DNA of 48,707 nt. Source: an uncultured Clostridia bacterium (GTDB lineage: Bacteria > Bacillota > Clostridia > Christensenellales > UBA1242). The stretch covers positions 1-48,707 of the forward strand of contig CALVML010000009.1 in NCBI GenBank assembly GCA_944345705.1, written 5' to 3'. Below the pieces are notes generated by a model. It made no database searches. It saw nothing but the letters and a program-made list of their open reading frames with translations, and was not told where the DNA came from. The translations under genes were made by a program, and so were the position numbers. Below are positions 23,781 through 48,357 of this stretch, in pieces; positions within the stretch are counted from its first letter, which is position 1; each line of letters starts with the position of its first letter.

Positions 23781-23803
23781 TTATTTTCGATAACAAATTT
23801 AGT

Positions 23804-23836
23804 AAAAATCCTAACAAATATTTTGTTAGGATTTTA
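23804..23836 (+). terminator. Terminator of the 22971 gene
   Basis: AAAATCCTAACAAA pairs perfectly with TTTGTTAGGATTTT across a four-base loop, followed by further T-rich sequence. Symmetric A and T flanks could allow bidirectional use. Confidence 0.9.
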
Positions 23837-23901
23837 TGTTGTTGTTTATATCCTAAAATTAATATTTTATTAAAAGATTTGCTTTTTCAATTAAATTAGA
23901 T

Positions 23902-23929
23902 TTGACTTTTTGGGGAAATGTATTATAAT
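23902..23929 (+). promoter_or_regulatory. First promoter of the cloverleaf repeat array
   Basis: TTGACT (23902-23907), a 16-nt spacer and TATAAT (23924-23929). The predicted +1 (about 23936) falls on the first bases of the folded repeat. Confidence 0.75.
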
Positions 23930-24034
23930 TTATGTGATGCTTAAAATTTTATTGACATAAAATTTTGTAAATTCTTCGAATTTAGTGCTGACGCACTTAG
24001 CATCACATAAATTGTTAAACCATCAGCCTCACCC

Positions 24035-24063
24035 TTGCAAGCAAGTTCGGCTTCCGGTATAAT
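24035..24063 (+). promoter_or_regulatory. Promoter inside repeat copy 1, reading into copy 2
   Basis: TTGCAA (24035-24040), 17 nt, TATAAT (24058-24063). The same arrangement recurs at 24167-24195 ahead of copy 3. Confidence 0.7.
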
Positions 24064-24166
24064 AATTGATGCTTAAAATTTTATTGACATAAAATTTTGT
24101 AAATTCTTCGAATTTAGTGCTGACGCACTTAGCATCACATAAATTGTTAAACCATCAGCCTCACCC

Positions 24167-24195
24167 TTGCAAGCAAGTTCGGCTTTCGGTATAAT
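24167..24195 (+). promoter_or_regulatory. Promoter inside repeat copy 2, reading into copy 3
   Basis: TTGCAA (24167-24172), 17 nt, TATAAT (24190-24195). One spacer substitution relative to the first copy; both hexamers unchanged. Confidence 0.65.
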
Positions 24196-24366
24196 AATTG
24201 ATGCTTAAAATTTTATTGACATAAAATTTTTTAATTCTTACGAATTTAGTGCTAACGCACTTTAGTGCATTTTTAAGAATTTAGTATTAGCATGCTGGGT
24301 TTGAGATAAATAAGGCTATAATTTATATAGGTTTTAATTTTAGTATATAAATGCTATGGAGGTAAA

Positions 24367-25134
24367 ATGATTTTATACGGAGATTATCATACGCACACAA
24401 AATATTCTAGGCATAATCATGGTAAGGGTACAATCCTTGAAAATGCTTCGGTTGCAATGAATAAGGGACTTAAACAAATAGCTATAACAGAACATGGTTT
24501 TAATCATTTTACTTATGGCGTGCGTAGACGAGAAATTAGAGCCATGAAGGAAGATATCTTGAATGCAAAGGAAGTCACAGGTATCGACATTCTGCTTGGT
24601 GTTGAGGCTAATTTGATAGGTTGTGATGGAAGTATAGATGTAGTTGATAGTGATTTTGAGTTTTTGGATATTCTGCTTATGGGACATCACCAGTTAGTCA
24701 AAACTAAAACTCGTCAAGATTTTAATCGTTTAGTACTTGCGAATATGTTTGGCTCTCCATTCAATCCAAGTCAGGAAAGGCTAAATAGAAATACTACCGG
24801 CTTCTTAAAAGCCCTTGATAAATATCCAATCGATATTATCACGCATTTAAACTATGGATGTCCAACCGATACTCTTGCAGTTGCCAAAATGGCGCGAGAA
24901 AAGGGGACTTTGATTGAACTCAATGGCAAGCGCATAAATTTCACTGATCGAGAGCTTTTGACGATGGCGGAAGAAGGGGTGAAGTTTATTGTCGATAGTG
25001 ATGCGCATAGTCCGGAGCGGGTTGGAGAATGTAACAACGCAATTAATACAATCTTTAGATTGAATTTACCATTAAATCAAATAGTAAATATAGATAAATT
25101 ACCTAAATTTTTAAGTAAACGGGGGACAAATTGA
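24367..25134 (+). CDS. PHP-domain metal-dependent phosphoesterase
   Basis: A 255-residue PHP hydrolase of the YcdX/histidinol-phosphatase-like kind. Metal-binding motifs are in order: DYHTHTKYSRH near residue 6, ITEHGFNHF near 39, the glutamate in GVEANLIG, MGHHQL, ITHLNYG and the C-terminal DSDAHSPERVGE. The substrate is unknown; relatives act on phosphorylated small molecules. GGAGG ribosome binding site. The stop codon overlaps the TTG start of whiA, so the two are translationally coupled. Confidence 0.88.
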   Translation: MILYGDYHTHTKYSRHNHGKGTILENASVAMNKGLKQIAITEHGFNHFTYGVRRREIRAMKEDILNAKEVTGIDILLGVEANLIGCDGSIDVVDSDFEFLDILLMGHHQLVKTKTRQDFNRLVLANMFGSPFNPSQERLNRNTTGFLKALDKYPIDIITHLNYGCPTDTLAVAKMAREKGTLIELNGKRINFTDRELLTMAEEGVKFIVDSDAHSPERVGECNNAINTIFRLNLPLNQIVNIDKLPKFLSKRGTN

Positions 25135-34881: not shown

Positions 34882-34903
34882 TTGACTAGACTTTTGACTA
34901 GAC
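34882..34903 (+). promoter_or_regulatory. Left integrase arm-type repeats
   Basis: TTGACTAGAC at 34882-34891 and 34894-34903, 12-bp period, about 53 bp inside attL. The identical pair at 48304-48325 lies about 75 bp from attR. Likely binding sites for the integrase N-terminal domain. Confidence 0.55.
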
Positions 34904-35354
34904 TTTTTGTTAAAAAAGGATATTTTTTAGATCTAAATACCGGCACCAATCTTTCAGCTTAACCTTAGGGCTAGTGTAGTTATGTAGTAATAAGTGAATA
35001 TGAATCATACTTCTTTTCAGCTTGCGACGATAGTCGCATAAAAAATTACATCCGCTTATAGTGATTTTAACGCTATATTATTTTAAATATAATATTTTTA
35101 TTAAATATATATATATTATATAAAATATTTTCTCTAATAATATAAAAGAATTTGAATATAGTATAAGGATATATTTTCTTTGCTACTTTCTTTTAGAGAT
35201 AGAAATTTTTTAGTACATGGGAAGAAATTTTTTAGTACGAAATATAAATGCAAAAAAAGGCATTAACATTTTGTGATGCCTTTTTCTACTAAATTTGATA
35301 CTATTGAGAAAATTTTTTGTTATTATTATATTCTATTTACTACTATATCACCTC
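34904..35354. other. Non-coding left end of the prophage
   Basis: About 450 bp without a gene. It holds the hairpin TGCGAC/GTCGCA (about 35027-35042), a very AT-rich tract (35080-35150), two direct repeats GAAATTTTTTAGTAC (35202-35216, 35224-35238; 22-bp period) and a bidirectional terminator-like hairpin (AAAAAGGCAT 35254-35263 with ATGCCTTTTT 35276-35285). The repeats are possible iterons or regulator sites. Confidence 0.6.
35252..35285. terminator. Terminator at the left end of the prophage
   Basis: AAAAAGGCAT pairs with ATGCCTTTTT around a 12-nt loop. Symmetric A and T tails suit leftward phage transcripts as well as rightward ones. Confidence 0.75.
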
Positions 35355-47096: not shown

Positions 47097-48311
47097 ATGG
47101 ACAAAGATTTTGGAAAGGACTTATTTGAAGGATTAAACAAGATTAGAGAAATTACTACATGGCTAATTGAATGCCTGCATATAGAAGGCGGGCGGAATAT
47201 TAGAACCTGGAAGGAAGAAGAAAAAACTATCATTGAAGTTAAAGCTGAAAGAAAGTCAAAAAAGTCGAGAGAGCCTACTCTAAAAATAGAAGATAAAGGA
47301 GTAGGTAACACAATGAGAAAGAACTGTTATAGAAGAAGTGACGGGCGTTGGCAATATTCAAAACAAGAGAATGGAATGCTTTACTACGCGATTGCTAACA
47401 CCTATCGAGAGTTGATAACAAAAATCGATAAGATTCAACCAAGACAAATTAAAACAATTAAAAGAATTAAAACTAAGATTTTGACATTCATTGAGTATTA
47501 CAAATTTTACATTGCAAACTATGTCAATACAAAACAAATCAAACAGCATACAAAAGATGTATGGACTATGCTCTTAAAAAAATACATAGCGCCAGCATTT
47601 CCTAGAGTACCGCTTGAAAAATTAGCGCCTGAACAAATTCAGGCGTTTGTAAATAAAATTGACAAGGAACGAACTAGGGAAGTTTTATATCAAAACATTG
47701 TCAAGGTGTTGCGAAAGGCATATATAACTGGAAAGATTAAAAAAGATATAACGCTTGGCATTGAGAAACCTGCCCGCAACAATACACAAACGCGAACACC
47801 ACTTACAGTTGAAGAACAAGAGAAACTTTTAAATTATGTCAAAGATACCAAGTTGTATCCTTTCGTTATGTTTTCGCTGATTGTTGGGAGTAGGAGAGAA
47901 GAAACAATCAAATTTAACTTAGCGGAAGATTTAGACGAAGAAAAACAAATAATACATATAAAAGGTACAAAGACTAGGAATGCGGATCGATATGTATATG
48001 TTACAAAAGAGTTTATCGCCTTCTTAAAAAAACATATGAAGTCGAACAAGTTTGATTTTAATGTAAGTTATCCAACGCATGAACTTGGCAAAGTATTTCA
48101 ACAGCTTAAGATCAAAAACTGTTTACATGGCTTAAGACATACATGTTCTGCAAACTTGTATTTCTTAAATGCTAAGGATAAATACAGACAACTGCAACTA
48201 GGGCATAGTAGCATTGTCACGACAAATAATATATACACAAACATAAAAGAAAACATACCGAAGGCTAGACTGCGTGAATTATATGGGAATTTATATCCAT
48301 CATTTGACTAG
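47097..48311 (+). CDS. int: Tyrosine site-specific integrase
   Basis: A 404-residue phage integrase. The catalytic set is complete: Arg266 (GSRREE), Lys292 (GTKTRNADRY), His344-x-x-Arg347 (HGLRHTC), His370 (LGHSS) and the nucleophile Tyr380 (NNIYTN). A SAM-like core-binding domain precedes (about 128-225). A second in-frame start at ATG 47313 (residue 73, MRKNCYRRSDGRWQYSK) has AAAGGAG and would give a 332-residue form of ordinary length; the first 72 residues are highly charged and atypical. It lies 88 bp from the tRNA-Lys attachment site, the usual place for a tRNA-targeting integrase. Confidence 0.95.
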   Translation: MDKDFGKDLFEGLNKIREITTWLIECLHIEGGRNIRTWKEEEKTIIEVKAERKSKKSREPTLKIEDKGVGNTMRKNCYRRSDGRWQYSKQENGMLYYAIANTYRELITKIDKIQPRQIKTIKRIKTKILTFIEYYKFYIANYVNTKQIKQHTKDVWTMLLKKYIAPAFPRVPLEKLAPEQIQAFVNKIDKERTREVLYQNIVKVLRKAYITGKIKKDITLGIEKPARNNTQTRTPLTVEEQEKLLNYVKDTKLYPFVMFSLIVGSRREETIKFNLAEDLDEEKQIIHIKGTKTRNADRYVYVTKEFIAFLKKHMKSNKFDFNVSYPTHELGKVFQQLKIKNCLHGLRHTCSANLYFLNAKDKYRQLQLGHSSIVTTNNIYTNIKENIPKARLRELYGNLYPSFD

Positions 48312-48325
48312 ACTTTTGACTAGAC
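48304..48325 (+). promoter_or_regulatory. Right integrase arm-type repeats
   Basis: TTGACTAGAC at 48304-48313 and 48316-48325; the first overlaps the integrase stop codon. It matches the pair at the left end. Confidence 0.55.
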
Positions 48326-48357
48326 TTTCGTTACAAAACCAAACACAAAATAAAAAA

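Follow-up and report, generated by a model that had tools for sequence, protein, structure and literature searches.

Anatomy of the array

The window, by which we mean the whole 48,707-nucleotide stretch of an uncultured Clostridia genome that we analyzed, contains a short tandem array of folded units in the leader region of a PHP-domain protein gene. What are these units? The initial annotation took each of them for a sigma-A promoter that drives its own cloverleaf RNA. The evidence below points elsewhere: the array probably consists of tandem copies of a short mobile element, roughly 137 bp long and non-autonomous, which belongs to one uncultured gut Clostridia genus. Its features are as follows.

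23902-23929, plus strand: PHP gene promoter, TTGACT-16-TATAAT, like the promoter upstream of the orthologues in 22 of 29 relatives
23924-23933, no strand: left direct repeat TATAATTTAT, from reading the sequence; partner at 24317-24326
23930-24010, putative minus strand: part A of unit 1; fold z against shuffles -8.20 (minus) and -6.00 (plus)
24005-24072, putative minus strand: core hairpin of part B, unit 1; covariance model R1, 75.5 bits, E 3.5e-19
24062-24142, putative minus strand: part A of unit 2; plus-strand fold z -4.39; tandem repeat
24137-24204, putative minus strand: part B of unit 2; model R1, 75.0 bits, E 5e-19
24194-24296, putative minus strand: degenerate part A of unit 3; plus-strand fold z -1.60
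24297-24316, no strand: possible remnant of a third part B, suggested by its position; no R1 match there
24317-24326, no strand: right direct repeat TATAATTTAT, from reading the sequence
24367-25134, plus strand: PHP-domain protein gene (Pfam PHP, E 2.5e-9), whose leader region the array occupies

The array spans 23924-24326 in units of 132 bp. The tandem units described initially are readily recovered by Tandem Repeats Finder, which reports 23935-24262 with a period of 132, 2.5 copies and 97% matches. Each unit consists of part A, in which a closing stem encloses three hairpins, and of part B, which forms a fourth. Part A occurs three times, the third time in degenerate form, and covariance model matches place a full part B twice. 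In unit 1, the closing stem of part A pairs 23930-23941 with 23999-24010 and encloses hairpins at 23943-23966, 23969-23983 and 23984-23997. The TGAC loops on two hairpins are present as described. On the plus strand, none of 200 shuffles equalled the fold of copy 1 and one of 200 equalled that of copy 2; 14 of 200 equalled copy 3, which is the chance level, so that the proposal that copy 3 had kept its structure cannot be upheld from this copy alone. Between the cloverleafs, at 24005-24072 and 24137-24204, lies a hairpin that the initial annotation overlooked and that is the most conserved of the family. Its R1 match in unit 1 is printed on the plus strand, and a covarying 4-bp helix (24025-24028 with 24049-24052) flanks a conserved tip at 24029-24048. 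The flanking TATAATTTAT repeats, likewise overlooked at first, are possibly a target duplication, or a chance match given the AT-rich DNA. Elsewhere in the window, Tandem Repeats Finder lists one 12-base tandem motif, TTGACTAGACTT, twice: 2.2 copies of it, differing in phase, stand at 34882-34907 and at 48303-48328, and one of these two places adjoins a tRNA cluster.

The units belong to a dispersed family with a covarying core

The window units are members of an interspersed repeat family with units of about 137 bp. BLAST with the array found nine places in the 1.28-Mb genome, the window included, and a copy from another contig, used as query, gave 14 matches at E up to 0.1. A covariance model of part B, built from 29 sequences, placed 14 copies at ten loci of the same genome, with both strands represented. 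Across the genus, the model detected copies in at least 71 of 112 genomes, with 1-34 copies each and 400 in total; owing to strict filters, both the genome count and the total are lower bounds, and in this search the element was not found in the other 41. An order-wide sample yielded matches in 11 of 248 genomes, eight of them from the same genus (our genome included) and three weak (E 2e-4 to 9e-4). Read by eye, two of these weak matches, from another family, have a similar hairpin plan with an altered core. A pattern scan of named genomes returned at least 114 stretches; among the 80 matches listed, nearly all are from uncultured Clostridia, with some from uncultured Firmicutes and one from Christensenella. 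The array had no match in phages or plasmids, nor did the exact core string in viral contigs.

The initial annotation had named a genome-wide repeat in random orientation and with broken stems as the outcome that would speak against it. The repeat is indeed dispersed on both strands, but its stems are kept. The recurrent anatomy is a closing stem, whose arms a and a' usually enclose three hairpins, followed by the core hairpin B. Head-to-tail arrays are common in the family, and tandem units elsewhere are spaced at 136-138 bp. At one locus (L271), the copy at G000:C1:106963 appears to be followed, in the right flank beyond position 1131, by one more unit, diverged and with a different hairpin tip. 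In a gene-orientation census of 125 arrays, which used crude ORF calling and is too coarse for firm conclusions, 86 lie outside called ORFs with a neighbor on both sides (the two neighbors being co-directional for 49, convergent for 24 and divergent for 13), another 35 lie inside a called ORF and 4 lack a neighbor.

The structure of part B is kept, with covariation well beyond shuffles on most measures. Among 29 diverse cores, alignment cells changed on both sides of a pair numbered 108 versus 47 in shuffles, and the covariation score reached 0.404 versus 0.161 shuffled and 0.10-0.12 in slid controls. A set of 122 distinct rows, which were fitted to the model and hence lean towards it, gave 399 versus 139 cells and a score of 0.407 versus 0.147. 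Two measures stayed within the shuffle range: the number of pairs with a double change (73 of 500 shuffles as high for the 29 cores, 79 of 500 for the 122 rows) and the number of further pair types in the 122 rows (17 of 500 as high). Thus, the covarying homologues for which the initial annotation had proposed a covariance-model search exist in the genus, and its idea of a structure kept while the sequence changes holds for part B at the level of the family. The near-invariance of the core is partly imposed by our search patterns. Long-tip variants have the tip replaced by a longer hairpin, a few with an A-U to G-C change beside the tip, and many cores of the non-mobile type carry CGTC beside helix P3, where the mobile type mostly has CATC.

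The design matches no Rfam family, in line with what had been noted from the sequence. With Rfam 15, only three tRNAs exceeded the gathering cut-off in the window, and only tRNA and rRNA did so in 40 further loci. An E-value search of six loci produced eight sub-threshold matches besides tRNA and 5S, the best being Thr_leader, whose 35.9 bits fall short of its cut-off of 55.

A unit has been inserted since the split from the closest relative

Comparison with the closest relative, G022, reveals a clean insertion. In a gap between two genes that we take, judging by their sequence, to be yebC and ruvC, our genome has one unit and G022 has none, with flanks about 96% identical. The net gain is 137 bp, which matches the tandem spacing of 136-138, and the site, empty in G022, is TATA-rich. 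Insertion polymorphism is thus observed at one clean empty site among five loci compared with G022. A second locus (C2) holds an old degenerate copy common to both genomes; of the remaining loci, one flank (C37) had no match, and the C1 array and PHP gap were not alignable across the gap. Visual inspection of the single precise insertion revealed, at its two ends, no terminal inverted repeats of the kind that DDE-type MITEs share with an insertion sequence. Its junction, also inspected by eye, may bear some likeness to dif sites.

Among the PHP loci compared, the array itself is confined to our genome. It is absent beside the PHP gene of G022, whose PHP protein is 98% identical, and when 30 orthologous PHP stretches were scanned, one of which (L298) offered just 134 bases upstream, cores in the position of the array turned up in our genome only. 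In three stretches (L289, L311, L317) a core lies elsewhere, farther away in L311 and L317; in G022, the gap has its own element copy at a different place on the opposite strand.

One arm of the element matches gene ends in some relatives

Upon close examination of the units, we noticed that arm a', the 5' arm of the core in the plus-strand reading, is complementary to the upstream segment a. Removing 44 non-first units of arrays, 11 duplicates and 9 matches near a contig end from 145 model matches left 81 distinct first units, some of them near-identical between genomes. With kinship ignored, the pairing of a' beats all 60 shuffles in 36 of the 81, over 10-24 nt, and is silent in 35 (at least 5 of 60 shuffles equal). 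The distance between a and a' is 46-68 nt in 32 of the 36.

What arm a consists of differs between types. The arm of the mobile type is TATAAACTATGTGATG-like. In non-mobile units of some relatives, arm a coincides with a gene's end, namely that of tRNA-Val, tRNA-Glu, 5S, tuf or rpsI, with the EF-Tu and S9 neighbors confirmed by Pfam. A direct copy of a often follows 3' of the core: at 15 chosen loci, each tested against 500 shuffles, six copies were equalled by none and three by 3 to 11, and six (tuf included) were weak or gave nothing. At L024, where the stretch yielded no tRNA gene, the copy behind the core nonetheless matches at 18 of 19 positions.

Several arrangements near gene ends deserve mention in their own right. 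In several species (L022, L028, L061, L274, L283), tandem related units lie downstream of tRNA-Val; these include hairpins that resemble terminators, and they repeat the 3' end of the tRNA in antisense. L077 (3496-3660) has a core flanked on one side by a partial copy of the 5' half of tRNA-Arg and on the other by the intact tRNA-Arg gene, as if it had inserted into a duplicated tRNA. In two further units, L205 (near 1728-1900) and L197 (near 1501), arm a starts within GTGGATAAC, which we take to resemble a DnaA box; the unit in L205 lies near a gene for a UvrD-like helicase, the one in L197 near a gene for histidyl-tRNA synthetase.

The fold of the repeat, more than its sequence, persists throughout the genus, and the gene ends matched by its arms vary from species to species. 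Should the arm rule be a sign of targeting, the element would be a small, natural, gene-end-specific insertion system without a protein of its own.

The loops point to the minus strand

Two features bear on which strand folds. In 50 mobile-type units, GNNA accounts for 49 of 103 four-base loops on the minus strand and for one on the plus strand; non-mobile units have 22 versus 6 among 58 loops, and GNA triloops number 18 versus 4 among 86, all of these being raw counts without a control for composition. The second feature is the minus-strand core pattern G-GA-N4-GA-AC...GU-GA-N4'-GA, which contains two paired GA/GA mismatches, the inner one present in 109 of 122 rows and the outer one in 79 of 122. 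Together, the GNNA loops and the GA/GA mismatches suggest a folded minus strand, perhaps in the form of single-stranded DNA. In DNA, loops of the GNNA and GNA types have a special stability, as do tandem GA pairs; RNA has GNRA loops. The third GNNA position is a pyrimidine in 40 and a purine in 9 mobile-type loops, unlike GNRA; elsewhere it is a purine in 14 and a pyrimidine in 8, so that the loops there may be GNRA-like RNA loops.

We dropped two other strand tests. Fold energy is lower on the minus strand in 47-48 of 50 units, but a shuffle control explains most of this difference by base composition (-6.8 kcal/mol real, -5.6 shuffled). The plus-strand counts of G-U versus A-C disagree from one helix and data set to another: they stand at 16 to 2 for three P3 positions and 19 to 8 for four, and in a second data set at 11 to 15 for P3, 62 to 51 for P1 and 69 to 6 for P2, where 63 come from one column.

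A tentative mechanism and the search for an enzyme

How might such an element move? The folded minus strand would be recognized by an enzyme, possibly as single-stranded DNA, and this enzyme, akin to a tyrosine recombinase or a Y1 transposase, would cut and rejoin at TATA(A). Elements that integrate in tRNA genes leave the target gene intact; similarly, in other species, arm a would supply the target gene's own end, so that the gene would stay intact. In this specific form, with a four-hairpin particle, GA mismatches and GNNA loops, integration at TATA and a guide arm that copies the end of the target gene in some lineages, the folded single-stranded DNA model, which would amount to a new class of mobile element, is a tentative proposal that we would not call likely.

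A search of the 112 genomes for Y1 transposases, reverse transcriptases, IS110 transposases and tyrosine recombinases gave no convincing mobilizing enzyme. Y1 transposases (PF01797) occur in 13 genomes, 12 of which carry the element (p 0.03), and copy numbers are higher with Y1 (p 0.001), both with kinship ignored; our genome has no match, and one of five Y1 loci has a core in its fetched flanks. Reverse transcriptases are found in 26 genomes, again without a match in ours, and Transposase_20 (IS110, searched by PF02371 only) in none. Tyrosine recombinases or integrases are present in 111, and, after correction for genome size, copy number shows no relation to them (r 0.08, p 0.39; kinship ignored). 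At L321 (1423-2202), a Y1 transposase gene is followed by an element that starts about 130 bp past the stop codon, with the core about 230 bp past it.

Alternative readings

The copies could instead be kept for an RNA function: as cis elements or as small RNAs from either strand, they would be structured RNAs that serve, for example, in the processing or protection of stable-RNA 3' ends, and their spread would be a by-product. The strong covariation of part B, the copies 3' of tRNA-Val, tRNA-Glu, 5S, EF-Tu and S9 genes, the terminator-like hairpins within the closing stem, the plus-strand G-U excess in some counts and the GNRA-type third position in 14 of 22 non-mobile GNNA loops are all consistent with such a role. 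What speaks against it is that mobile-type copies have no constant gene partner at the loci read (with crude ORF calling), that the element was not found in 41 of 112 genus genomes, that a unit was inserted since the split from G022, and that a pyrimidine takes the third position in 40 of 49 mobile-type GNNA loops. We consider this role rather unlikely.

Nor need a palindrome have an enzyme or a function, since template switching during replication can by itself grow and perfect hairpins. Template switching would yield compensatory changes in one step, and arms that copy neighboring sequence at gene ends fit as well. A passive origin is nonetheless very improbable: a single model detects the near-invariant core in 71 genomes, the examined units share a recurrent hairpin plan and GNNA loops, and a whole unit was inserted at an empty site.

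The promoters proposed for the units bring us back to the PHP gene. The array follows immediately on the -10 box of the PHP gene promoter; because of this position, copy 1 borrows a promoter that belongs to the gene. In line with this, 22 of 29 relatives have TTGAC[A/T]-15 to 18-TATAAT in the last 150 or so bases before the PHP gene, and none of them has a core at this place. The promoter-like sites of the later copies, TTGCAA-17-TATAAT at 24035 and 24167, are located where the initial annotation put them, but both strands of 23800-24380 contain seven such sites against 3.7 (sd 2.0) in shuffles. Their -35 element, TTGCAA, lies within the hairpin tip, which is nearly invariant. Of 201 distinct cores, only 4 have a perfect TATAAT behind this element; a -10 matching at four of six positions follows it in 69 of 81 mobile-type cores, which makes an outward end promoter conceivable. 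The notion that each copy is a complete transcription unit therefore finds no support, copy 1 using the gene's promoter and a perfect -10 being so rare, and the units are probably not promoter-driven RNA genes. That a sigma-A promoter in every unit drives its own cloverleaf RNA, as the sites preceding copies 2 and 3 might suggest, is very improbable, given the borrowed promoter of copy 1, the rarity of the perfect -10, the place of TTGCAA in a conserved tip and the 3.7 sites expected by chance. As a caution, promoters and hairpins in AT-rich repeats can make a mobile element look like an RNA gene. For the PHP gene, the array would add about 390 nt of hairpins to the mRNA leader; any effect on its expression is a guess.

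Comparison with known systems

As a probable non-autonomous mobile element, the repeat invites comparison with other folded DNAs. Integron attC sites likewise keep their fold despite little sequence conservation, use one strand and have stem mismatches. Paired R boxes in attC read RYYYAAC and GTTRRRY; such a pair surrounds none of 220 cores, and we rejected an attC identity.

REP sequences (GTAG repeats) are described as clustered palindromes with compensatory stem changes, thought to be moved by a Y1 transposase that recognizes single-stranded REP DNA (PMC2817692, PMC3733652). A REP is, by these accounts, a palindrome of 20-40 bp, whereas the element has 132-138 bp and four hairpins. We rejected REP/RAYT membership: our genome has no Y1, and four of five fetched Y1 loci have no core in their flanks. 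The CGTC repeats are described as single hairpins with a stem of 8-9 bp, a loop of 4-5 bases and a tail that is mostly CCA (PMC3733652). They too are not known to have a dedicated transposase, and the CGTC tag is present in many cores of the non-mobile type. Membership was rejected here as well, since the element departs from the single-stem plan in these descriptions and its mobile type mostly has CATC.

Also close in kind are the BOX elements of Streptococcus pneumoniae, which are described as small, modular, folded, interspersed and mostly intergenic, thought to be mobile and over-represented between convergent genes (PMC3049150). Our element is likewise small, modular, folded and interspersed. 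It differs in its host group and in its modules, a closing stem with three hairpins and a core hairpin, and its arm rule has no counterpart in the BOX description consulted; the two are set apart by description, not by sequence (PMC3049150). The core string was not found in the literature text searched, where work on interspersed repeats concerned either known families or nothing that fits. Within the literature and databases searched, the family, its plan and its arm rule appear to be undescribed. Small folded mobile repeats are a known kind, represented by BOX and REP, and the element is probably a further, non-autonomous case.
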